IMG/VR virus record: IMGVR_UViG_3300030110_005755
Location: 1 to 38,187 of that record
Source: a virus
Length of the DNA stretch: 38,187 nucleotides
Reading direction: 5' to 3' (one strand)
A program made the translations under genes and the position numbers. Within the stretch, counting starts at the first letter, position 1; each line of letters opens with the position of its first letter. Below the pieces are notes generated by a model. The model had not been told where the DNA came from and did not search any database. It saw nothing but the letters and a program-made list of their open reading frames with translations. Below, piece by piece: positions 6,004-38,187 of this stretch.

Positions 6004-6342
6004 TTATTTATCTAAAAAATCACTTTCGTGTTTTTGCCGGACCCCGTTATTTAGTAGTTTTGATACAACTACTTCAATTGAATCAGTTTTAAGACTAAAA
6101 TTAGAGTTAAAATTTTGATTACCGTCGTATAGAGAAAATAGATATTCACCCCTGAATGGTGTATTTTCAAAACATGTTACAAATACAGATGCACCACCTG
6201 GATCTACTAGTACTGTCCATTTACGTGGATCTGCTTCACTGTATTTATCAAATATTCGCAAGGTAACAAAATCATTATCCTTTAGTCTTTTAATAAAGTA
6301 CCCTGCAGTTTTTAGCTTGTTCTTTTTTTGATTCACTATCAT
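6004..6342 (-). CDS. Hypothetical protein, 112 aa, downstream of the clamp gene
   Basis: A compact protein (KLKTAGYFIKRLKDNDF, then WTVLVDPGGASVFVTCF) whose pattern looks like a mixed alpha/beta domain. I associate similar sequences with small conserved proteins of marine T4-like phages but cannot name a function. It starts inside the stop of the clamp gene (4 nt overlap), indicating coupled translation, and ends 4 nt before the 104-aa gene. It is not RegA-like. Confidence 0.7.
   Translation of the reverse strand: MIVNQKKNKLKTAGYFIKRLKDNDFVTLRIFDKYSEADPRKWTVLVDPGGASVFVTCFENTPFRGEYLFSLYDGNQNFNSNFSLKTDSIEVVVSKLLNNGVRQKHESDFLDK
6005..6012 (-). promoter_or_regulatory. Possible late promoter box (GATAAATA), doubtful
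   Basis: Leftward GATAAATA lies exactly 5 nt before the ATG at 5999, matching the geometry of the better late boxes. However, these bases also encode Asp-Lys-stop of the preceding gene, so the match may be coincidence. Confidence 0.3.
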
Positions 6343-7061
6343 TGAGTTAATGCTGAAATTATATACTTTAATTTAATACCATTACTCTCAATATCAAATA
6401 CAACTACGCCAAACTCAGTATTTACTTTAACATCAAACTTATCATTAATACTTGAAAGTAATCTTAAGTTATCTAAGTTTAGAGGCACAGCTTCTAAATC
6501 AAACTTAACTTCTCCAATAGATAGAGTAAAGTTATCGGTATTATGTCTAGATCGATCAGTAAGTTCTGCCATTAAATTACCGTCTTCAGTATAAAAATAA
6601 ATTTTATTAGTTTCATGCGCAAATCCACAACCTTTAAAGATACGTTGCAGAGTAGTTTTATCTAAATCAAATTCAACATCATATTTAAACTTACTAATTT
6701 TATCTAAGTTAATATTAGGTCTAGTAATAAAGCCTTCTTCATAGAGATGATACTTAAACTTTACGTCTTTACCTTTATACTCTAAATTATTACTATTGAT
6801 AATCAATTCGATTTCATCTTTTTCAATAGTATCTAAGACGTGCTTAAGTTTTTTAACATCAGGTATATTAAGAACAGTTTCTATATCGCAATCAATATCA
6901 AAGTTAGTATGTAATATTAACGTACTATCTAAGCTTGAAACTAAAGCAGATATCTGCTTATCTTTAATATCTAAAATAACGCCTTGATCATTTATCTTTG
7001 AAATAGCGTCTAAAAACTTTAGAAATTCACCTTTGTTTGTTAATTTTAACTTTCTTTCCAT
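6339..7061 (-). CDS. 45: Sliding clamp (T4 gp45-like)
   Basis: A 240-residue protein with clamp-like alternating beta strands and helices (SSLDSTLILHTNFDID, IKLKYIISALTQ at the C-terminus), close in length to T4 gp45 (228). The clamp encircles DNA, holds gp43 on the template and, in T4, also activates late transcription through gp55 and gp33. The gene lies between the SSB region and primase/nuclease genes. Its start overlaps the end of the 159-aa gene by 35 nt and its stop overlaps the 112-aa gene by 4 nt. Clamp-loader genes 44 and 62 were not found here. Confidence 0.8.
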   Translation of the reverse strand: MERKLKLTNKGEFLKFLDAISKINDQGVILDIKDKQISALVSSLDSTLILHTNFDIDCDIETVLNIPDVKKLKHVLDTIEKDEIELIINSNNLEYKGKDVKFKYHLYEEGFITRPNINLDKISKFKYDVEFDLDKTTLQRIFKGCGFAHETNKIYFYTEDGNLMAELTDRSRHNTDNFTLSIGEVKFDLEAVPLNLDNLRLLSSINDKFDVKVNTEFGVVVFDIESNGIKLKYIISALTQ

Positions 7062-11523: not shown

Positions 11524-12177
11524 TTATTTTGTTTTCCACTTATTCAAGAACCACTCTTGTCCTTTATAAAATTCGTTAGTAAAAGATTTCAAACCTGGAG
11601 ATTTATGAGTAATGTATATGTCACCGACTCCTAATTTAAAGCCGGCTTTATGACATTGCATTGAATAATCTAAATCATAAAAATGCCACTTTGAAGGGCA
11701 CGATTCATCAAATCTTATCTTTGTAAATACCTCTCTCTTTATAGCCATAAAGACACCATCAAGTAAAACTACACGTTTTGGATATTCGCCAAAACATGTC
11801 ATGTGCTTTTTATTTTCATCTCCATGAGCTACAGCACCGTGTAAGTTTCCGGAGTTAAAACCGCCTCCCATTAAGTGCCATAGTGCAGGTGCTTTCAAAC
11901 TAACTTCAGTAGTACCTGCGCAACCAACGACATCGAATTTTTTAAACAGTTTATTAAGTCTTTCCTCAGAAAAGTTTTCTAAAATAATGTCATCATGAAC
12001 TAACACTAAATTTTGTACATGTTCCTGTAAAGCAAAATCTATAGCTTTGTTATATATCTTATGTAATGAGTCTTTATTGTTTTGTTTAAAGATAACAGAA
12101 GAGTTTTCACTAGTTTGCCAAAGTAAAGTATTAGTGTCTTTACCTGCTGTGGCTGAGAATATCATAGTATCAATCAT
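11524..12177 (-). CDS. Glycosyltransferase-like protein (GT-A), 217 aa
   Basis: The sequence VLVHDDI at 58-64 gives the D-D motif, LLDGVFMAIKREVF at 138-151 is the typical acceptor-side strand and helix of family 2-type transferases, and YDLDYSMQCHKAGF at 167-180 carries the later catalytic acidic residues (compare the StrF/Glyco_tranf_2_5 group). Its ATG overlaps the stop of the glutamine amidotransferase gene by 4 nt, and the helicase follows, so a sugar transferase is embedded in a replication operon. The acceptor is unknown. Confidence 0.75.
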   Translation of the reverse strand: MIDTMIFSATAGKDTNTLLWQTSENSSVIFKQNNKDSLHKIYNKAIDFALQEHVQNLVLVHDDIILENFSEERLNKLFKKFDVVGCAGTTEVSLKAPALWHLMGGGFNSGNLHGAVAHGDENKKHMTCFGEYPKRVVLLDGVFMAIKREVFTKIRFDESCPSKWHFYDLDYSMQCHKAGFKLGVGDIYITHKSPGLKSFTNEFYKGQEWFLNKWKTK

Positions 12178-12851
12178 ATAAAAGAAAACGGAGAGTCGTG
12201 CTCAAACTTACCAACTTTATTCCATCGTTTAGTTTTTTCATTTAGACGTACTATAACTCCTTCTGGAAGCTCTTGTAATGAACTACCATTTATAGTAGAA
12301 TAGTCACCTTTATTATTGTAATGAAGTATAGATCCTGAACGAGCAAGGAACACTTCACTAGTATCACAAAATACAATACTTAAAGCATATGTACCTGCAA
12401 GAAGCTCTAATGTCTGTTTTATAATCTTAACAGGGTTAGGTAGTACTTTACCTTTATCGTGTTCCTTTTGCGTAAAGTGTTCCAATAAATTAACTATAAC
12501 AGCAGTATCTACATTATTTTCAAGATACTTACAGTATTGTTTCTTAAGCTTTTTATGATTAGTTAGAACTCCATTATGAGAAACTAACCAAGAAAGAGAT
12601 TCAAAAGGGTGTGAGGTATCATATCCCCATTTTCTAGTAGATGAAGTAGGTGCCTGTACATGACCGAGATAATACCTACTTAGTGGTTGATGTGTATACT
12701 TATCAAAGTTTATATCACCTTGTTTCTTTTTAATAAATTGATCGTCTTCCGATAAGCTAACTATACTACTTGCAAAATTACCTCTTTGCTTGTTTGCTTC
12801 ATACAAAACTTCAAACATAGAAGAGTCAAAAGAACCAAATATCGCGCACAT
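12174..12851 (-). CDS. Stand-alone class II glutamine amidotransferase domain
   Basis: A 225-residue Ntn-hydrolase that should release ammonia from glutamine. Cys2 directly follows the initiator Met (MCAIFG), so Met removal exposes the nucleophile. R23-G-N, GHVQAPTS at 63-70 and HNGVLTN at 92-98 match the glutamine-binding loops of GlmS and asparagine synthetase. There is no fused synthetase or isomerase domain, so it must act with a partner. Candidates are the QueC in this window (Gat plus QueC systems convert preQ0 to archaeosine-type bases) or the adjacent sugar enzymes. TATAAT lies 7 nt before the ATG. Confidence 0.85.
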   Translation of the reverse strand: MCAIFGSFDSSMFEVLYEANKQRGNFASSIVSLSEDDQFIKKKQGDINFDKYTHQPLSRYYLGHVQAPTSSTRKWGYDTSHPFESLSWLVSHNGVLTNHKKLKKQYCKYLENNVDTAVIVNLLEHFTQKEHDKGKVLPNPVKIIKQTLELLAGTYALSIVFCDTSEVFLARSGSILHYNNKGDYSTINGSSLQELPEGVIVRLNEKTKRWNKVGKFEHDSPFSFI

Positions 12852-13333: not shown

Positions 13334-13336
13334 AGG

Positions 13337-13344
13337 TATAAATA
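13337..13344 (+). promoter_or_regulatory. T4-type late promoter box (TATAAATA)
   Basis: A perfect TATAAATA ends 6 nt before the ATG at 13351. It occupies almost all of the 17 nt between two divergent start codons. A leftward TATAAT lies at 13346-13351, immediately beside it. Confidence 0.75.
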
Positions 13345-13350
13345 TATTAT

Positions 13351-14850
13351 ATGAGTTCCTTTGATTACACCGATAATTTTAATGGCTTTAATGATTTAAT
13401 CAACAGAGCAGACTTTCTTACAGAAGCTAAGATTGGAAAAGCACATCCTTCATTTGGAGGCTTAGCCAAAAGGATAAAGCAAGAGGTTGGAAAAGGGTTT
13501 CCACGAGATGTGAGAATGCTTATAAAGACAGTATTATATTACCTAGATATTTTTAATGATGAAGATCTAGATACATTAAAAGCAGCTGGAGGAGCGGCGA
13601 CTAGTAGCTATAGGCTAGCGTTAGAAGGGTTATTAGACAAATACCAGGATGAAATTAAAAGCAGAGCGGATGAAATTACAGATAAACTTGAAGAAGAATT
13701 TATTAATTTTGTTAATGAACAAAAATTAAAGGTAGGAGCAGATAGAAAAGCTGCGTATGAGGCGGAGTCCGAGGCTAAGGCTGCAGCACAGCGTTTAGAA
13801 AAGGAAATTGAAGGAGGGGGTGATATCGTTGATGCGGTGGATGGTGCTGTAGGTGAACTTGAGCAGAGTACAGCTGATGCGTTTGAAACTCTTAGAGCAG
13901 CTAAAGAAGATCCAACTACATTTATTGAAATAAAAATTAGAGATGCTGATAAAGCTTCTGATGTAAGTAACATTGTTACTAAATATGCTAATGAAGATGG
14001 TGTAGAAGTATCAGGTAATACGGTACAATTTTCAGTCGATCCAGATACACCGTTAGCTAATGCAGTATCTACACACGGAGTAGATAAAATTGAAGCAGCT
14101 CTTAAAAGAGATGTGGACGCTATCAGTGATAGTGTAGTTGTAGTTATGGCACCAGAAGAAGATTACGAGCGTATGGATGATGAGGAAATGGGATATGGTC
14201 TAGATGAGCCAGGTGGTGTACCGGGTAGTTACGCTATGGGTGAAGAAGGTGGTGGAATTACAGAAGTAGAAGATAACGAAGATGAAGCAGCTGCAAGAAA
14301 AAAGCCAGGTGGTTCAAATGTAGGTGATTATCCTAACGTCTCTAAAGATGATTTTTGTGGACCAGCTGGGGGAGCTCCAGAAGGTAGTTATCCTGTAAAT
14401 TCAGAAAGAAGAGCTCGAGCTGCTTTAGCTTATGCACACAATGCGCCGGATCCTGAAGGTATTAAAAACTGTGTATACAGAAAAGCTAAAAAGCATGGAT
14501 GGTTTGATAAACCAGATGAAGAGGATAACGAGCTAGATCACTTCTTAACTAAAGAGCAACCAGAAGATTATATTCCTTCAACTGATTATGAAGACGTGTT
14601 AGATGCTCTTGTTGATGATGATAAAAAGAAGCATGCAATGAAAAAGCTTGGTAGTGAAGATGAAGAAGAGGCTATAAAGATGCAACCGATGCTTGAGTCA
14701 CATAAAACAAATACATCAGTATATCTTACTGAGCAAGCTGCTTCTGATAAGCGTAATAAAAAGACTGAGACTAAGAATCAGTCCTTTAAAGAAAAGTATA
14801 AGCCAAAGACGTCTTGGCAGTTAGAAGAGCTTAGACGTTACGGTCTTTAA
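13351..14850 (+). CDS. Large late protein with Gly/Pro signature domain
   Basis: A 499-residue acidic protein. The N-terminus (FDYTDNFNGFNDLINRADFLTE) is Phe-rich and ends in L-T-E at 23-25, compatible with a gp21-type processing site. Residues about 40-220 look helical, with Ala/Glu-rich coiled-coil segments. From about 330 comes a Cys-containing domain with FCGPAGGAP, SYPVNSERRARAALAYAH and a later CVYRKAKKHGW, a signature I associate with phage structural or prohead-associated proteins. The C-terminus is basic (TSWQLEELRRYGL). It has its own late promoter. Whether it is a head-internal protein or part of the capsid maturation machinery cannot be told. Confidence 0.7.
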   Translation: MSSFDYTDNFNGFNDLINRADFLTEAKIGKAHPSFGGLAKRIKQEVGKGFPRDVRMLIKTVLYYLDIFNDEDLDTLKAAGGAATSSYRLALEGLLDKYQDEIKSRADEITDKLEEEFINFVNEQKLKVGADRKAAYEAESEAKAAAQRLEKEIEGGGDIVDAVDGAVGELEQSTADAFETLRAAKEDPTTFIEIKIRDADKASDVSNIVTKYANEDGVEVSGNTVQFSVDPDTPLANAVSTHGVDKIEAALKRDVDAISDSVVVVMAPEEDYERMDDEEMGYGLDEPGGVPGSYAMGEEGGGITEVEDNEDEAAARKKPGGSNVGDYPNVSKDDFCGPAGGAPEGSYPVNSERRARAALAYAHNAPDPEGIKNCVYRKAKKHGWFDKPDEEDNELDHFLTKEQPEDYIPSTDYEDVLDALVDDDKKKHAMKKLGSEDEEEAIKMQPMLESHKTNTSVYLTEQAASDKRNKKTETKNQSFKEKYKPKTSWQLEELRRYGL

Positions 14851-15626
14851 GCACATTCTCTACAATTATTTTCTTCGTATAGCTTATTCAACTTTTCTTG
14901 TTGAATATAAGTAATAGGATCTTTATAACCAGCGTCAACAAACCCCTTTACTCTCATACTACTTGATGGTGTAGTTGCGTCTGCAATCAAATGATAACCT
15001 TTACCGTTCTTTTCTACCTTACCATCAGAATAACAAGTCCAAGTATCTTTAAATTTAACTCCAAGTCTAATACCTTCTTTGATAATATCTGCTTTAGACA
15101 TATCTAATAAAGGAGCTTCAATTTCAATTCTATTTTCTCTGTTTAGTTCTGTTACTTCATTAACAACATCTACAAACTCTTCACTACCATCCCAGTAACC
15201 AGCTAGAGAGTCTACTTGCGCTGCACCATACCAAACTGTATCAGCTCCAACACCTTCAGCGTAAGAAGAACAAATAGATAAAAACATTAAATTCCTAAAC
15301 GGTACATAAGATACAGGTTGTGCATCACCAGCCATATCACTAATGTTAGGATTATCGATATCGGTATTAGTTAAAGATGATGTAGGGGCAATATCTTTGA
15401 TATACTTAACATCTAAAACTTTATTCGTCACCTTAATGTTCATCCAAGCATTAAACTGCTCATTAAAGTTTTTAATTTGCTTATCAACGCAAGCAAGTTC
15501 ACGTTTATGTCTTTGACCATAGTCAAAGGTTACCGTATGTATTTCTTCATAGCCTCTATCTTGTGCCATATACAACAGCACAGATGAGTCCATTCCGCCA
15601 CTAAGAGTTAGTACTAATTTTTTCAT
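14847..15626 (-). CDS. queC: 7-cyano-7-deazaguanine synthase (QueC-like)
   Basis: A 259-residue N-type ATP pyrophosphatase that would convert CDG to preQ0. The PP-loop LSGGMDSSVLL (8-18), FDYGQRHKREL (34-44) and VPFRNLMFLS (108-117) are conserved. Cys198 (TWTCYS) remains from the usual zinc cluster, but the CGxCxxC part is replaced by ATTPSSSMR near 217-225; a CREC pair ends the protein (255-258). It overlaps the glycosyltransferase-like gene upstream by 26 nt and converges with the late gene at 14850. With FolE2 at 36360 and the amidotransferase at 12174 it suggests a 7-deazaguanine pathway; QueD and QueE are not in this window. Confidence 0.88.
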   Translation of the reverse strand: MKKLVLTLSGGMDSSVLLYMAQDRGYEEIHTVTFDYGQRHKRELACVDKQIKNFNEQFNAWMNIKVTNKVLDVKYIKDIAPTSSLTNTDIDNPNISDMAGDAQPVSYVPFRNLMFLSICSSYAEGVGADTVWYGAAQVDSLAGYWDGSEEFVDVVNEVTELNRENRIEIEAPLLDMSKADIIKEGIRLGVKFKDTWTCYSDGKVEKNGKGYHLIADATTPSSSMRVKGFVDAGYKDPITYIQQEKLNKLYEENNCRECA

Positions 15627-24519: not shown

Positions 24520-25549
24520 ATAAACCAAGCGTGTAGTCTATTATCTCCTTTTTATTCTTAATTTCAAGTAGGTTGACGAACTCTTCTATAGCTTGTGGTA
24601 TATCAATACCTGATAGATCTTCCTTATTATCTGTATCATCAATTAACCGATTAAAATTTATATCATAGTCAACTGTTAAGACCTCTGGCTTGAGCATAGT
24701 TAACTTCTTTAAAAGAATATCCATATCAGCTTGAGATATATTTCTATCAACCTTTAGTTTGGTTATATTTCCAGCAAACATATTAACGATATTTTTTGTA
24801 ATAGCCTTTTCACGAACTAATTCACTCAACGATACTTTCATATAGTTAGGTGATATGTTATTAGGTGTAAACTCATACTCTAAAGTATCTAAATCTAATA
24901 CGTAATAACCTTTTTGATTATCTGCATCACCGAAATCCATTTGAAAGGGGTTACCAACATACAAAATCGTTCCTTTACCAAACTTCTTTTCATGTCTTGT
25001 ATGAAAATGCCCTGATACAACTAACGGACTCTTCTTTAATAAATCCTTTACCTTAAGTCCTTCTTCACAAACCTTATAAGAATTCATCTTAAAAGTTTCA
25101 ATCTCAAAATGGCCAAAGACTATATCACTTTCAGGTATATCTTTAACGTTTGTGTTCCAAGGACAGAAGGTTATGGTACGATCAAAAGCTTCAATCGTAT
25201 CAAACTTGTCTAAAATAGTAACATTTTTACGCTTCTTGAAGATAGATAGTGAATTAACATCTGTTCTATGTTTATAGTAAATATCATGGTTACCAGTGAT
25301 CGCTATAATATTAAAATCACTTAGTATATCCAATATATCTGCAGATACCTGTAACGTATTAACAGAGATTTCACTTCTATTATGGTGCCAATCACCACAA
25401 AAGATTAAATCTTTAATATTTTTTCGTTTACACTCTTCTTTAAACCAGTGAGCCCATTCTACGGCATAATTATGCCATTCAGAACTGTTAGAATGTACTC
25501 CTAGATGAAGATCTGAAAAAATACCAATTCTGGGTTTATTGATCTTCAA
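24500..25549 (-). CDS. 47: Recombination nuclease subunit gp47 (Mre11/SbcD-like)
   Basis: A 349-residue metallophosphoesterase. All nuclease motifs are visible: FSDLHLGVHS, FCGDWHHNRS, ITGNHDIYY, VFGHFE and VSGHFHTRHE, followed by VGNPFQM. It pairs with gp46. The start appears to be a TTG at 25549, overlapping the gp55 gene end by 14 nt; the next Met in frame would remove the first nuclease motif. Length matches T4 gp47 (339). Confidence 0.94.
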   Translation of the reverse strand: MKINKPRIGIFSDLHLGVHSNSSEWHNYAVEWAHWFKEECKRKNIKDLIFCGDWHHNRSEISVNTLQVSADILDILSDFNIIAITGNHDIYYKHRTDVNSLSIFKKRKNVTILDKFDTIEAFDRTITFCPWNTNVKDIPESDIVFGHFEIETFKMNSYKVCEEGLKVKDLLKKSPLVVSGHFHTRHEKKFGKGTILYVGNPFQMDFGDADNQKGYYVLDLDTLEYEFTPNNISPNYMKVSLSELVREKAITKNIVNMFAGNITKLKVDRNISQADMDILLKKLTMLKPEVLTVDYDINFNRLIDDTDNKEDLSGIDIPQAIEEFVNLLEIKNKKEIIDYTLGLYEKSKL

Positions 25550-25976
25550 AAGAATTTTCTTCGTCAGGTGGTTTTACATATACATGACCATGAGTATTTT
25601 CAGGATTGGTCATAAAATCTTCGTATACTCTTTCTTTATACTTAGTAACTGCTTCATGATGCTTTTTTTCTTTCTTTATCCTGTTAATAAATGCATGATA
25701 AGCTATAGTAGTAAAATAAGAAAAAGGATTAGTAGCTTTTTCAAAGTTAAACTTTTTATGCTTTAGTGCAGAGTACATTTTAATAAGAGCGTCTCCAATC
25801 ATATCGTCTTTATATGTGTAATTGATAAACGATGCATTATAACTTAGACCATAAGCAATTTTTTTAATATTTTCTGCTAAATCATCTGTTAATATATCAC
25901 TATCATAATACTTTTGCAAAGACTCTTTAAAGACTTTAGGTTCAATATAGTATGGTTTTTTTTCTTTTCCGGCCAT
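25536..25976 (-). CDS. 55: Late-transcription sigma factor (T4 gp55-like)
   Basis: A 146-residue sigma-family protein. YKDDMIGDALIKMYSALK and FSYFTTIAYHAFINRIKKE correspond to region 2.1-2.4-like helices that contact core RNA polymerase and the -10-type late box. The C-terminus (PPDEENSFEDQ) is acidic; in T4 gp55 the end binds the sliding clamp. It should read the NATAAATA boxes found before the late genes in this window. Its own promoter is early-type: TTGAAA, 16 nt, TATAAT, 7 nt, ATG, with the -35 in the last codons of uvsW. Confidence 0.88.
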   Translation of the reverse strand: MAGKEKKPYYIEPKVFKESLQKYYDSDILTDDLAENIKKIAYGLSYNASFINYTYKDDMIGDALIKMYSALKHKKFNFEKATNPFSYFTTIAYHAFINRIKKEKKHHEAVTKYKERVYEDFMTNPENTHGHVYVKPPDEENSFEDQ

Positions 25977-25983
25977 TTGTTTA

Positions 25984-26011
25984 ATTATAATGTATAATTT
26001 TTATTTTTCAA
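25984..26011 (-). promoter_or_regulatory. Sigma70-type promoter for the gp55 gene
   Basis: Leftward TTGAAA (26011-26006), 16 nt spacer, TATAAT (25989-25984), then 7 nt to the ATG at 25976. It gives gp55, gp47 and gp46 expression independent of uvsW. Confidence 0.7.
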
Positions 26012-27434
26012 CGATGTTAGTTTCTGTATACTTTATCTTCTCAGCATCGTATATTTCTTTACGTTTTTCACAATGTCTTATACCATATCTTAACTGATCG
26101 CATATATCAAATATAATAAGCTTGTTTTTTGAGGTATGTTTACGTAATCCACGTCCTACTGACTGAACTGTACGAATAAACGACTTTCCTCCTGCAGCAA
26201 ATATAATATTATGTAGATTCTTGATGTTAACCCCAGTAGAAAAGATAGAACTCATTGCTACACATATAACATTATTATCCTTCTCCATTATTCTCTTTAT
26301 ATCTTCACGGGTCTCTACTTCTACCTCACCTCTAATAAAGTAAATTTGTTTATTTTCGCATTGAGTAAGATATTCGGAAAGATTTACCCCTTGAGCTATA
26401 TGATTAACAAGTATAAGGGTGTTATTCTCTAATTTACCGCATAATTTAGTTAAAAACGTGTTACGAAAATGACTTTCATATATAAAATCTAACTCTTCTT
26501 TGTAGGCATTATCAGAAAGATACCTAGGAGGTGTATTATACTCAAGATTTAACACCTTCACATTAACATTTGCTAAATAATCCTCTAATCTAAGTTCGTA
26601 ACTCGACTTCTCATATATAACAGGTCCTAATTTACCTATAATCGACCACTTATCTAAGTTATTCTCCGGAAGAGTACCTGTAAATCCATATTTGTTATGT
26701 GTAGTTATCTTAGATACAATTTTACTGATCTTATTTGATGATTTAATCTTATGACACTCATCTACTATAAGTAAATCAATGTATTTTAACCAATCGCTAG
26801 TTTCAAACTGACTTTGAACTATTCCTATATTACAAATAACAACATTTGCAGTTAGATCTGGTTTAGTTTTACCAGTCCATTTAGTAAGTTTAAAGGTTGT
26901 ACCACAACTTATAAACTCATCATACGTTTGAGTCACTAGTCCAAGGTCAGGTACTAGTACGACACACTTAAAAGTATCTTTATCCGGACAAGATTGAAAG
27001 TAATTTTCAATTAAAGCAGCAGTTGTTAGTGTTTTTCCAGCACCGGTGCCTAATACACATGTACCTCTACCTAGTTTTAAAGCTCTTTTAATTACATCTT
27101 CCTGATATTCACGCAATGTAAGTGTAAAGTCTTTATATAGCTCTATATCTTTACCTACTTTTAATACTTTTTGTAGTTTATCTGTTATTTCAATATCAAT
27201 TTTGATCTGATTGTTAATCAAGTATTGTCTAATCTCCCAGTATAGCCCGACTTCACAAGCTCCTGTACCAGTTATAGCGTATTTACGTCGTGCAGCAAAG
27301 CGACCTCTATATCTTGCAAACCGAGCTCCATCGTTCTCGACACTAAAATGCTCTCTTAATCTATCAAATAGGTCTTTATCATCAGTTTTAAGCTGAATCT
27401 TTCTTTTACCGGGGCTATAATCAAACGTAAGCAT
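26001..27434 (-). CDS. uvsW: Helicase UvsW (SF2)
   Basis: A 477-residue SF2 helicase. The small N-terminal domain (about 1-95) precedes REYQEDVIKRAL (Q-like motif), Walker A GTGAGKTLTTAAL, DECHKIK (motif II), FTGTLPE (motif III) and the C-terminal SVGRGLRKH (motif VI). In T4, UvsW remodels replication forks, unwinds R-loops and switches origin-dependent to recombination-dependent replication. The ATG overlaps the last base of the UvsY-like gene stop, so the pair is cotranscribed as in T4. Confidence 0.92.
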   Translation of the reverse strand: MLTFDYSPGKRKIQLKTDDKDLFDRLREHFSVENDGARFARYRGRFAARRKYAITGTGACEVGLYWEIRQYLINNQIKIDIEITDKLQKVLKVGKDIELYKDFTLTLREYQEDVIKRALKLGRGTCVLGTGAGKTLTTAALIENYFQSCPDKDTFKCVVLVPDLGLVTQTYDEFISCGTTFKLTKWTGKTKPDLTANVVICNIGIVQSQFETSDWLKYIDLLIVDECHKIKSSNKISKIVSKITTHNKYGFTGTLPENNLDKWSIIGKLGPVIYEKSSYELRLEDYLANVNVKVLNLEYNTPPRYLSDNAYKEELDFIYESHFRNTFLTKLCGKLENNTLILVNHIAQGVNLSEYLTQCENKQIYFIRGEVEVETREDIKRIMEKDNNVICVAMSSIFSTGVNIKNLHNIIFAAGGKSFIRTVQSVGRGLRKHTSKNKLIIFDICDQLRYGIRHCEKRKEIYDAEKIKYTETNIVEK

Positions 27435-27829
27435 TAAAGTTGCTCCATTTTATTAATATCTATGATGTTTTTTATCTCCCAGTGCATTTGACCCATGATC
27501 TTTTCTACTTTTTCAAGATATTCAATAATAGAATCTTGTTCGTTTATAGAATCATTCAAGTTGCTTATAGAATCATGACGTTCTGCAGCAGATTCAGCAG
27601 CAGATTGACTTATTCGAACCGGAGAATCAGATATTACCTTTTTAACTACCTCTTTTTTAAGTTTTTTCTTTTCTTTGTAAAGAGTACTACGTTTAATTTT
27701 TGCTTCTATTAGACGAGCCACCCAAAAGTGCTTACGAGCAGGTAATCTCATTTGTGATTCTTTGATATTAAAGTCATCTAATTGAAGATCTTTAGTAATT
27801 TCTTCAATATACTTTTTTAGCAATTCCAT
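27434..27829 (-). CDS. uvsY: Probable recombination mediator UvsY
   Basis: A 131-residue highly charged helical protein. Its layout (acidic N-terminal helix LLKKYIEEITKDLQLDD, a basic middle segment KIKRSTLYKEKKKLKK, and a C-terminal helix EIKNIIDINKMEQL) parallels T4 UvsY (137 aa), which loads UvsX onto gp32-coated ssDNA. The gene is directly upstream of uvsW, as in T4-like genomes. Identification is by size, architecture and position, not by a catalytic motif. TATAAT lies 6 nt before the ATG and overlaps an oppositely oriented late promoter. Confidence 0.75.
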   Translation of the reverse strand: MELLKKYIEEITKDLQLDDFNIKESQMRLPARKHFWVARLIEAKIKRSTLYKEKKKLKKEVVKKVISDSPVRISQSAAESAAERHDSISNLNDSINEQDSIIEYLEKVEKIMGQMHWEIKNIIDINKMEQL

Positions 27830-27835
27830 CTATAT

Positions 27836-27862
27836 ATTATAAATACTAATGTATGGAATCAA
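27836..27862 (-). promoter_or_regulatory. Promoter of uvsY-uvsW, overlapping a late promoter
   Basis: Leftward TTGATT (27862-27857), 15 nt spacer, TATAAT (27841-27836), then 6 nt to the ATG at 27829. Bases 27838-27841 are shared with the rightward TATAAATA box at 27838-27845. Confidence 0.6.
27838..27845 (+). promoter_or_regulatory. T4-type late promoter box (TATAAATA)
   Basis: A perfect TATAAATA ends 7 nt before the ATG at 27853. It heads the rightward late block 27853-29735 and overlaps the leftward -10 box of uvsY. Confidence 0.75.
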
Positions 27863-28287
27863 CCGGTAGATTTGAAAAGTTATTCTTTAAAATGCTTGAA
27901 GAAATGAATATAGCAGGTGCTGATGGATCGTTTGGCGATGGGCAAACAATGCATACCGTATATGGTCCTAATGCTGCAGCACAAAATATTGATTCTGGTG
28001 ATACTTATGCGCCTGGAGATGCAAGAATACCTTTTGGAACTAAAAAGGTACAAACACGAAGAGGATCAACAGGAAATAAAAAGAAAAAAAAGAAAGAAAA
28101 AGGTATAAATTTTGCTACTGGTGAAGAAAACGAGGAAGGCTTACCAGAAGAGGATGCTGAAAAGAAAAAGAAGGCTGATAGATGTAAGCGTAGAGCAGAT
28201 TCAGTTTATGGTAAGAAGACTTCAGCTTATAAATCTGGTGCTATAGTGAGATGTAGACAAGGTAAAATTTGGAAGAAGAAAAAATGA
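27853..28287 (+). CDS. Basic Cys-containing late protein with targeting-like N-terminus
   Basis: A 144-residue protein. The N-terminus FEKLFFKMLEE resembles a capsid-targeting peptide with an L-E-E site at 15-17. The centre has low-complexity Gly/Asp segments and a Lys run (KKKKKKEK), and the C-terminal domain contains DRCKRRADSVYG and VRCRQGKIWKKKK. The ATG at 27853 is used because the earlier ATG at 27849 hits a stop after six codons. Its stop overlaps the next start (ATGA). The strongly basic, Cys-bearing C-terminus could bind DNA. Internal head protein is an inference. Confidence 0.7.
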   Translation: MESTGRFEKLFFKMLEEMNIAGADGSFGDGQTMHTVYGPNAAAQNIDSGDTYAPGDARIPFGTKKVQTRRGSTGNKKKKKKEKGINFATGEENEEGLPEEDAEKKKKADRCKRRADSVYGKKTSAYKSGAIVRCRQGKIWKKKK

Positions 28288-28733
28288 GTAAGTTCGAACA
28301 AGCTTTAGAATCTTATTTAGAAGAAGCCAGTGATTCATTACGTCAGTGGTTTAAAAGAGGTGGTACTGATCCTAAAACTGGTAAGAAGTTTAAAGGTTGG
28401 GTAAATTGTAAGACTGGTGGTCCTTGTGGTCGTAAATCTAAAAAATCTGGTGGTAGTTACCCAGCTTGTCGACCTACTAAGGCGGCATGCAAGAGTATTA
28501 AAGGTAAAATGTATAAGAAAAAAGGACCGAAGCGTGTTAACTGGAAGAAGAAAAAGAAAAAGAGCGAAAATGCAGAAGATGTACATAAGCCAGTAAAGCC
28601 AGGTATACTTAAAAAGCGTTTAGGTGATCTTTCTTGTAGTAAGGTAAGAGGTGCAAAGAGTAAATTAAAAAATAAGGGCACTCATTATGCAAAAGCTCTT
28701 CAAAGATATTTAAATTATCACTGTCAGAAATAA
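28284..28733 (+). CDS. Lys-rich Cys-containing late protein (DUF5872-like), 149 aa
   Basis: I start at the ATG at 28284, overlapping the previous stop, because MSKFEQALESYLEEAS then forms a targeting-like peptide with L-E-E at 12-14 before Ala. The central domain has RQWFKRGGTDPKTG, GGPCGRKSK, SYPACRPTKAACKS and a Lys run, a pattern I associate with small phage proteins of the DUF5872 type. A second basic, helical region ends with YHCQK. Several Cys suggest zinc binding. Charge and size suit a packaged DNA-binding protein. Confidence 0.72.
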   Translation: MSKFEQALESYLEEASDSLRQWFKRGGTDPKTGKKFKGWVNCKTGGPCGRKSKKSGGSYPACRPTKAACKSIKGKMYKKKGPKRVNWKKKKKKSENAEDVHKPVKPGILKKRLGDLSCSKVRGAKSKLKNKGTHYAKALQRYLNYHCQK

Positions 28734-28736
28734 ATA
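28729..28736 (+). promoter_or_regulatory. T4-type late promoter box (AATAAATA)
   Basis: AATAAATA overlaps the stop codon of the previous gene and ends 5 nt before the ATG at 28742. Confidence 0.6.
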
Positions 28737-28741
28737 TTGTT

Positions 28742-29206
28742 ATGCAATTCGACGAATTAGTAAATCATCTACTTAAAGAGAACTGGAAGAAAGGGACATC
28801 AAAGGCTCCAAAGGGAGATTCATATGATATGGCAAGAGGGGGTGCTCCAAGTCGAGTAGATGCTGCTAGTGATGGATCAGGTGGTAGATATAGACGTACA
28901 CGTCCTCCAAGTGCACCATCTAAAAAAACTCATGGTGAGATGGAAGAAGAGCCTGAAGAGGATGCTGAAAAAGTTGATAAGGATCGTATGAAGTGTAACA
29001 GCCCTCGTCGTACTTCAGGTGGTTCTAAGAAATTCGTTGTTAAAGCTTGTAAAGATGGTAAAGAAAAGATTGTTCGTTATGGAGATCCAAATATGAAGAT
29101 TAAAAAGAGCAATCCAAAGCGTAGAAAGTCATTCCGCGCACGTCATAAGTGTGATCAGAAGAAGGATAAGTTCTCTGCTGGTTACTGGTCATGTAAAAAG
29201 TGGTAA
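28742..29206 (+). CDS. Basic Cys/Trp-motif late protein, 154 aa
   Basis: The N-terminus MQFDELVNHLLKENW is amphipathic with an L-K-E site at 11-13. The middle is Gly/Ser/Pro-rich and acidic. The C-terminal 75 residues form a basic domain with MKCNSPR, KACKDGKEKIVRYGD, RKSFRARHKC and the ending YWSCKKW. The FRARH-x-C and WSCxxW motifs recur in marine phage proteins of unknown function. The four Cys suggest a zinc site. It is the third consecutive basic, Cys-bearing protein with a targeting-like N-terminus. Its own late promoter overlaps the previous gene's end. Confidence 0.72.
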   Translation: MQFDELVNHLLKENWKKGTSKAPKGDSYDMARGGAPSRVDAASDGSGGRYRRTRPPSAPSKKTHGEMEEEPEEDAEKVDKDRMKCNSPRRTSGGSKKFVVKACKDGKEKIVRYGDPNMKIKKSNPKRRKSFRARHKCDQKKDKFSAGYWSCKKW

Positions 29207-36359: not shown

Positions 36360-37409
36360 TTATCTTAATCCTGTAGATTCAAAAACATCTCTAGTAACTC
36401 CTGCTTTGAAGCCACCTTCGATACCTTTTACAATTACAGATACAGCATTATGACTATGCAAACTTTCATTATGAGAAGCTACAATCTTAAAGTCTAAAAT
36501 ACGCGATTCGTTAGTAAGCTTTTCATAAAGTAATCTAACAGCATCTTCTACAAACTTTAAGTAAGCACCGTTCTTTTCTGCAAACGCTTGCTCATCTTCT
36601 CTCTTAACCATAACTTGCGTTTCAGTTTGAAGAGCAGCTAAGCATAATTCTTGAATATCTTCAATCCAAAGCATATCTTCAAATCTTACACTTACACGAG
36701 CAACGCTTCTTTGACTATGAGGTACAGTAGCTCTATTACGATACTTCTCAGCATGTTCACTTAGCTCAAAACTACAAGGACAAGCAGAAGAATAAACAAA
36801 ATCAAAATGAATATACTTCTTAAACTCACCTTCTTTAGTTAAGTCACCTTCAAATACTACATCGTAATATTGATAACCTTCTAAACCGCTACGTAAACTA
36901 TTTTGCTTAATAGGATAAGATATCTTAAGCATTATTCTTGAATCAAAACACTTAAGATTATTTTTATAAGTCTCTAAAACGTCTTTAATCTTATCAATAC
37001 TAAACGTCTCATCTTTATGATCATAAAAACTTCTCATAATACGTGACATATTAATACCTTTCTTATGAGCTTCCAAACTAACACTACCCGTAACGCTTGT
37101 TTCCAACTCAATTGTTTTACCGTTCCTTTTCTTATATGTAAGAGGAAGTTTAAAGTTATGAATACCTACTTGTTGAATAGGAACTGCTGCACCTTGAATT
37201 AAGCTTGAAGGTCCATTTTGCAGATCAGGTAAAGAAGAGATATACTTTTTAGTAGCGTTGACGTTTTTATCATAAACTCGAATAGGAGGAAAATAACTTT
37301 TACTATATTCTTCACCCATTAACTCTTTTGCAATAACATCTTTTTCGCCAGTAAGTTCATCATCCTCTCCTAGCCACTCATAATTAGAATCTTTTTTACT
37401 TTTACTCAT
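36360..37409 (-). CDS. folE2: GTP cyclohydrolase I, FolE2 type
   Basis: A 349-residue FolE2-family enzyme that would make dihydroneopterin triphosphate from GTP, the first step toward folate or 7-deazaguanines. The metal-binding CPCS motif lies at 210-213 (Cys210, Cys212), followed by SEHAEKYRNRA and HSQRSVARVSV; KKGINMSRIMRSF around 116-128 matches another conserved segment. Two TATAAT boxes precede the ATG: 37414-37419 (4 nt) and 37422-37427 (12 nt, with TTGAAA 15 nt further upstream). It heads the leftward operon folE2-SET-176 aa. Confidence 0.9.
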   Translation of the reverse strand: MSKSKKDSNYEWLGEDDELTGEKDVIAKELMGEEYSKSYFPPIRVYDKNVNATKKYISSLPDLQNGPSSLIQGAAVPIQQVGIHNFKLPLTYKKRNGKTIELETSVTGSVSLEAHKKGINMSRIMRSFYDHKDETFSIDKIKDVLETYKNNLKCFDSRIMLKISYPIKQNSLRSGLEGYQYYDVVFEGDLTKEGEFKKYIHFDFVYSSACPCSFELSEHAEKYRNRATVPHSQRSVARVSVRFEDMLWIEDIQELCLAALQTETQVMVKREDEQAFAEKNGAYLKFVEDAVRLLYEKLTNESRILDFKIVASHNESLHSHNAVSVIVKGIEGGFKAGVTRDVFESTGLR

Positions 37410-37413
37410 TTAT

Positions 37414-37448
37414 ATTATACTATTATAGTTACAATATTTCTTTTTCAA
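37414..37448 (-). promoter_or_regulatory. Promoter region of folE2
   Basis: Leftward TTGAAA (37448-37443), 15 nt spacer, TATAAT (37427-37422); a second TATAAT lies at 37419-37414. The -35 hexamer lies next to the rightward late box at 37450-37457. Confidence 0.6.
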
Positions 37449-37449
37449 G

Positions 37450-37457
37450 ACTAAATA
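37450..37457 (+). promoter_or_regulatory. T4-type late promoter box (ACTAAATA)
   Basis: ACTAAATA ends 6 nt before the ATG at 37464, the same variant as at 3093-3100. Confidence 0.6.
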
Positions 37458-37463
37458 TTGTAT

Positions 37464-38187
37464 ATGGCTAAATTGACGCAAAAAGACCTTATTCAAAAAA
37501 GTTTATATGAGGAAGGAATAGGAAGTATGTTAAAACAAGCTGCAAAATCAGCTTTAAAGACAGGAGTAGGAGCTGCTAAAGCATTAGGCGCATCTGCAGC
37601 TCCAAAGACAGCGGCTGCACTCGGTAAACTAGGTAATGTAGTGAGCAGTAATTTTGTAGAAATTATGGCTGCTAACCCTAAAAATGGTCTTAGATCTTGG
37701 TTAAATACCCCTGAAGGCCGTAGACTTTTTAAAGATGTAAGTTTAGGTAAAGAAAAAACTTTAGCTAATAATGATGTTAATGTAAATTTTAAAGGACAAT
37801 ATATAGATCCTAAAACCCCTAATGAACCTAAAGAAGTACAAGGTATTTTTTCAGTAAGAAAAGAAGACGAAGGTAAATGGGGAATAATGGGTGCAAATGA
37901 CAATGAAGGAAATGTAATATGGGCTCCTACAAAAAAGAAGGATAAAGATAAAGATAAAACTTCTTCTAAAGAAGCTGCACCAGTAACTGTAAACGTACAA
38001 GGCTCTCGAGAAGCTCAAGGTGAAAAAGGAGCTACTGGTGCTACTGGTGCTACTGGTGAAAAAGGAGCTACTGGTACTCAAGGTAAACAAGGTACTACTG
38101 GTACTCAAGGTAAACAAGGTACTACTGGTGCTACTGGTGCTACTGGTACTCAAGGTGCTACTGGTGCTACTGGTACTCAAGGTGCTA
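37464..38187 (+). CDS. Collagen-like late protein, 3' end outside window
   Basis: The frame opened by ATG at 37464 stays open to the window edge (241 codons), so the gene is partial. The N-terminus [17 protein letters not shown] has an L-Y-E site at 14-16 similar to the other late proteins. Residues about 22-60 are Ala/Lys-rich, then a folded-looking region ([19 protein letters not shown]) ends in a Lys run. From codon 186 the protein is Gly-x-y repeats ([19 protein letters not shown]), as in collagen-like phage fibres. This could form a trimeric rod. Leftward frames over this stretch are shadows of the repeats. Confidence 0.8.
38019..38187 (+). repeat. Collagen-type Gly-x-y coding repeats
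   Basis: Imperfect 9-nt units such as GGTGCTACT, GGTACTCAA and GGTAAACAA encode Gly-Ala-Thr, Gly-Thr-Gln and Gly-Lys-Gln triplets up to the window edge. The near-identical codons make unit-number variation by slippage or recombination likely. Confidence 0.9.

Follow-up and report, generated by a model that had tools for sequence, protein, structure and literature searches.

Probable overlapping divergent early and late promoters, both predicted to be leaderless, at the uvsY gene of an uncultured T4-like virus

The short gap between uvsY and the first gene of the divergent late block in an uncultured T4-like virus appears to hold a bidirectional, dual-sigma promoter that would start leaderless RNAs in both directions and admit one polymerase at a time. 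We put the probability of this reading, which is built on sequence comparison, at about 0.78. The arrangement lies in a window of 38,187 nt (the whole stretch of DNA analysed; positions 1 to 38,187 of IMGVR_UViG_3300030110_005755), a fragment of ~38 kb with 33% GC and no near isolate, the closest polymerase match being 33% identical.

The leftward genes form a replication and recombination cluster encoding uvsY, uvsW, gp55, SbcD-/SbcC-like nuclease subunits (the equivalents of T4 gp47/gp46), DNA polymerase and UvsX, together with a helicase, a gp32-like protein, an exonuclease and a primase. The recombination mediator gene uvsY (27434..27829, minus strand; phrog_231, E 2.7e-9; Pfam UvsY at 2.3e-4, just under its cut-off) is followed by the helicase gene uvsW (26001..27434, minus strand; phrog_16, E 2.9e-67), whose start overlaps the uvsY stop; the two are probably in one transcription unit. 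After a spacing of 24 nt comes the gene for the late sigma factor gp55 (25536..25976, minus strand; phrog_234, E 1.7e-25; T4 gp55 chain 7d7c_F, E 1.5e-7), which has a promoter of its own, TTGAAA-16-TATAAT-7-ATG, at 25984-26011 on the minus strand. The rightward block opens with a gene for a small basic protein (27853..28287, plus strand; weak match to phrog_727), and its next late-type box, AATAAATA, lies at 28729..28736 on the plus strand, 5 nt before an ATG at 28742. No RNA families were found in the window. Elsewhere it carries a gene resembling those for glutamine amidotransferases, headed by an early promoter (12174-12851), and a QueC-like 7-deazaguanine gene (14847-15626); the two are a hint that bases of the phage DNA or of the host's tRNA may be modified.

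On the plus strand, the 23 nt of the gap (27830-27852) read CTATATATTATAAATACTAATGT and are bounded by CAT, the uvsY ATG (27827-27829), and the ATG at 27853. The leftward -10 element of a sigma70-type early uvsY promoter, TATAAT (ATTATA on the plus strand), occupies 27836..27841 on the minus strand, 6 nt from its ATG, and the rightward box of a late, gp55-type promoter, TATAAATA, kept in relatives, occupies 27838..27845 on the plus strand, 7 nt from its ATG. That the two elements overlap by four bases within a 23-nt divergent gap had been claimed in an earlier note and is borne out by direct reading of the sequence; the shared bases, 27838-27841, are the self-complementary TATA. The note's description of two overlapping, divergent promoters of different class also stands, and both prove to be conserved; it was incomplete in that it missed the -35 element and the leaderless layout. 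The leftward -35, TTGATT (27857..27862, minus strand), falls beyond the gap, in the late gene (codons 2-4), with a spacer of 15 nt; it matches TTGACA at four of six positions. An earlier ATG, at 27849, runs into a stop after just six codons and is already upstream of the point where the rightward RNA is predicted to begin, which makes 27853 the likely start of the late gene.

We compared 79 uvsY relatives, which represent 56 distinct sequences including the window. As the earlier note had proposed to look for, the same arrangement recurs in related genomes: it is kept in 55 of the 56 distinct sequences, a count that does not represent independent trials because the relatives share descent. Of these 55 sites, 54 have TATAAATA as the late box and one has AATAAATA; the leftward -10 is TATAAT in 51, TATACT in three and TATTAT in one, and the distance from the -10 to the uvsY start is invariably 6 nt (55/55). 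From late box to ATG there are 8 nt in most relatives, and the other intergenic bases at the site vary. A TTGA is present as -35 with a spacer of 16 nt in 47 sites and of 15 nt in four, and is absent in four. The serine that overlaps it is encoded by TCA almost without exception, though TCA makes up only 24% of Ser codons; residue 4 of the late gene varies (T, S, R, M, I) and its codon always begins with A. Late genes with one extra N-terminal codon (MQES, MSES, MTES, MEKS) retain TTGA 16 nt from the -10. The -35 is apparently not essential everywhere, since TTGA is lost in a subclade whose late gene begins MNSTSKF (L219, L221, L222, L230-L232), with both overlapping -10 boxes retained, and TCC replaces TCA at the serine codon in the L027 group. 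The MNSTSKF subclade is a ready-made natural experiment on the importance of the -35.

A comparison with late boxes elsewhere separates the two elements. At 83 other late boxes from the window and two relatives, G001 and G002, the full TATAAATA is uncommon (23/83), and the bases in the corresponding overlapping position read TATAAT at just three of the 83, against 51 of 55 at uvsY; bases 27836-27837 therefore seem to be held for the leftward promoter. Mere counts of the box mean nothing, as TATAAATA occurs seven times in the window with 9.1 expected from shuffling; position and conservation carry the weight. In the clade loci, 32 of 61 copies of TATAAATA sit 3-9 nt before the ATG of an ORF of at least 80 aa, and this start-proximal share exceeds that of all letter permutations except ATAAATAT, which is TATAAATA displaced by a single base. 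Once relatives are compared, the arrangement is far above chance.

The uvsY site follows a promoter layout seen throughout the clade. Replication genes are headed by TTGA-16-TATAAT-6/7-ATG and late genes by NATAAATA-5/8-ATG, with clade-wide peaks of TATAAT at 6-7 nt and of NATAAATA at 5 and 8 nt before ATG. TTGA lies exactly 16 nt from TATAAT at 39 of 70 early-type heads (replication genes such as uvsY, gp55, polymerase, uvsX, gp32 and primase) and at none of 74 late-type heads; even with spacers of 15-17 nt it was found in only three of the latter. In G002, late-type boxes head the genes for tail sheath, tape measure, tail, portal, neck and head protease. The boxes occur at divergent or gapped gene heads; of 70 G002 genes that lie close against the preceding gene or overlap it, 59 have none. 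At most gapped or divergent gene heads surveyed (window, G001 and G002, L158-L175), early and late promoters stand 5-9 nt before the start codon.

This spacing has a consequence for the transcripts. In T4, TATAAATA spans -13 to -6 (PMC1524935), and the leftward +1 was deduced by letting TATAAT span -12 to -7; these rules predict RNA starts that coincide with the start codon or lie no more than about 3 nt from it. At the uvsY site the leftward RNA would begin at 27829 (minus strand), the A of the uvsY ATG, and the rightward RNA at 27851 (plus strand; PMC1524935), with a leader of 2 nt, so that both promoters are predicted to be leaderless. Taken together with Shine-Dalgarno motifs at background level, the layout suggests leaderless mRNAs, early and late, across this T4-like clade, and such a promoter grammar is a larger finding than the uvsY site alone. 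Searches of an open-access subset of the literature turned up no T4-like phage described as having leaderless promoters of both classes, early and late. Promoters fused to start codons would allow the promoter class, and hence timing, to be read from sequence and would correct the annotation of start codons.

Might the boxes be something other than promoters? Their fixed distances from start codons and the background level of Shine-Dalgarno motifs are what one would expect of A/T-rich translation-initiation signals in a host that makes no use of Shine-Dalgarno pairing. A -35, however, has no place in a translation signal, and the early class has one at a fixed spacing of 16 nt where the late class has none; in addition, the two classes track gene function, the boxes are largely absent before overlapping genes, and the late box is the known late promoter of T4 and cyanophages (PMC1524935, PMC2984593) in a virus that encodes gp55. 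We regard this explanation as very unlikely. Chance matches in an AT-rich genome of 33% GC would agree with the lack of enrichment of TATAAATA across the window, but hardly with a fixed spacing preserved in all but one of the distinct sequences while flanking intergenic bases vary, and we give them next to no credence. The promoter reading of both boxes is strongly supported.

How would such a promoter work? Leftward, polymerase with a host sigma70-type factor would recognize TTGATT-15-TATAAT and start RNA on the uvsY AUG, the transcript covering uvsY-uvsW and probably continuing into gp55. Rightward, polymerase with the phage sigma factor gp55 would recognize TATAAATA and begin RNA some 2-3 nt upstream of the late gene's AUG. 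This assignment of sigma factors to elements is deduced from the motifs. As the -10 elements share TATA, the site would hold a single polymerase at a time: both polymerases need the same melted DNA and the predicted divergent starts are 22 bp apart, within the ~25 bp expected of bidirectional promoters. From this geometry, simultaneous open complexes would be sterically impossible and mutual exclusion is likely. If indeed two sigma factors, one from the host and one viral, read opposite strands of one -10, a single short fragment would suffice to measure how they compete.

It is tempting to speculate that exclusion matters during infection and acts as an early-to-late switch. Since transcription of uvsY-uvsW would run toward gp55, 24 nt beyond uvsW, late polymerase on the site could damp early expression of uvsY-uvsW-(gp55) as gp55 builds up, but any feedback on gp55 would be only partial since gp55 has its own promoter. 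Late onset in T4-like phages depends on gp55, gp33 and gp45, not on one site; in the window no homologue of gp33 or gp45 was recognized, and the candidates at 6339-7061 and 6004-6342 had no significant match. Competition is plausible at uvsY in that both boxes are near consensus. At their basal level, bidirectional promoters of E. coli are usually not active enough to compete, and repression of one direction requires strong activation of the other (PMC12825309). Of the built-in switch proposed in the earlier note, polymerase exclusion holds up as a matter of geometry with a parallel in E. coli (PMC12825309), and its role as a switch is speculative. The most far-reaching version, a clade that dispenses with leaders and Shine-Dalgarno sequences in both programmes and uses the shared -10 as a sigma-exchange switch by which gp55 represses the early unit that runs toward its own gene, we consider rather unlikely as a whole.

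A serious rival to any regulatory role is compaction: the shared TATA may simply be the shortest way to seat two leaderless promoters, exclusion being a by-product without regulatory function. The divergent gaps of the clade are about as short as promoters allow, mostly 47-60 nt for other early/late pairs, which is approximately the length of two abutting promoters, and 28-34 nt for late/late pairs. Against economy as the whole reason for the overlap, which it may yet be, overlapping -10s were found at no other early/late pair of the three genomes examined, and the layout at uvsY persists throughout the clade without the promoters drifting apart; we rate this explanation slightly below even odds. 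An additional role of the site as a replication origin is a good deal less probable, in our view improbable. In the T4 record oriF sits at the uvsY start, with the uvsY transcript as primer, but gene order and strand here are unlike T4, GC skew in the window merely tracks the coding strand and no further origin element was seen.

Two other divergent gaps in the window may be mentioned here. At 13334-13350 a gap of only 17 nt has a rightward late box, TATAAATA (13337-13344), without a clear leftward promoter; the gap is kept in G002 and is 68 nt in G001. The region 37409-37464 holds a divergent early/late pair, TTGAAA-15-TATAAT leftward and CTAAATA rightward, the latter 6 nt ahead of an ATG at 37464; the tail-fibre-like gene probably begins at this ATG and not at the TTG at 37458.

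Parts of the dual-sigma arrangement proposed here are known from other systems. Bidirectional promoters of E. coli likewise have overlapping, pseudo-symmetrical elements and near starts, and one polymerase excludes the other (PMC12825309, PMC10268837); the commonest separation of their RNA starts is 18 bp, with 10 and 23 bp also common (PMC12825309). They differ in that the host's own sigma factors serve both directions, whereas at uvsY one side would belong to a phage late sigma and both RNAs are predicted to be leaderless. T4-type late promoters have the same octamer and, as here, no -35 and an encoded gp55; their boxes are TATAAATA in T4 and NATAAATA in cyanophages (PMC1524935, PMC2984593). 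The distance to the ATG sets the present clade apart: 5-9 nt, compared with 12-35 nt, mostly 27-28, in T4 and mostly 10-32 nt in pelagiphage Mosig. A -10 element a few nt before the start codon is also found at leaderless genes of Deinococcus-Thermus (PMC12340547) and at bacterial TA-led genes (PMC3160421), but here it would occur in a T4-like phage, in both early and late classes, and with a -35 in the early one. Early and late promoters at one place, as here, have been described for RB49, S-PM2 and Syn9, where, in contrast to the oppositely pointing promoters at uvsY, both drive one gene in one direction and mimic middle expression (PMC2984593). The divergent layout itself belongs to this clade, since uvsY follows same-strand structural genes in pelagiphage Mosig, cyanophage S-SCSM1 and phage C48C1, and uvsY and its neighbours are arranged differently in T4.

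The host is approached through a few leads. A scan of bacterial genomes with the DNA polymerase found nothing, and a small Kiritimatiellaceae genome that was sampled had no leaderless TATAAT peak. A weak match to a Flavobacterium phage had pointed to a Bacteroidetes host, an idea that was dropped since the early promoters belong to the TTGA/TATAAT type and the Flavobacterium phage lacks such spacing. The relative G001 carries tRNAs and a tmRNA (tag AANKVVDFVLPQAEPQFALAA; L167:19007-19082, L166:15777-16193). A 49-nt stretch of its tRNA-Arg matches exactly in eight genomes, six of which are Lentisphaerales or Kiritimatiellales, which makes these orders a possible lead to the host; two of the matching loci were checked and both look chromosomal.
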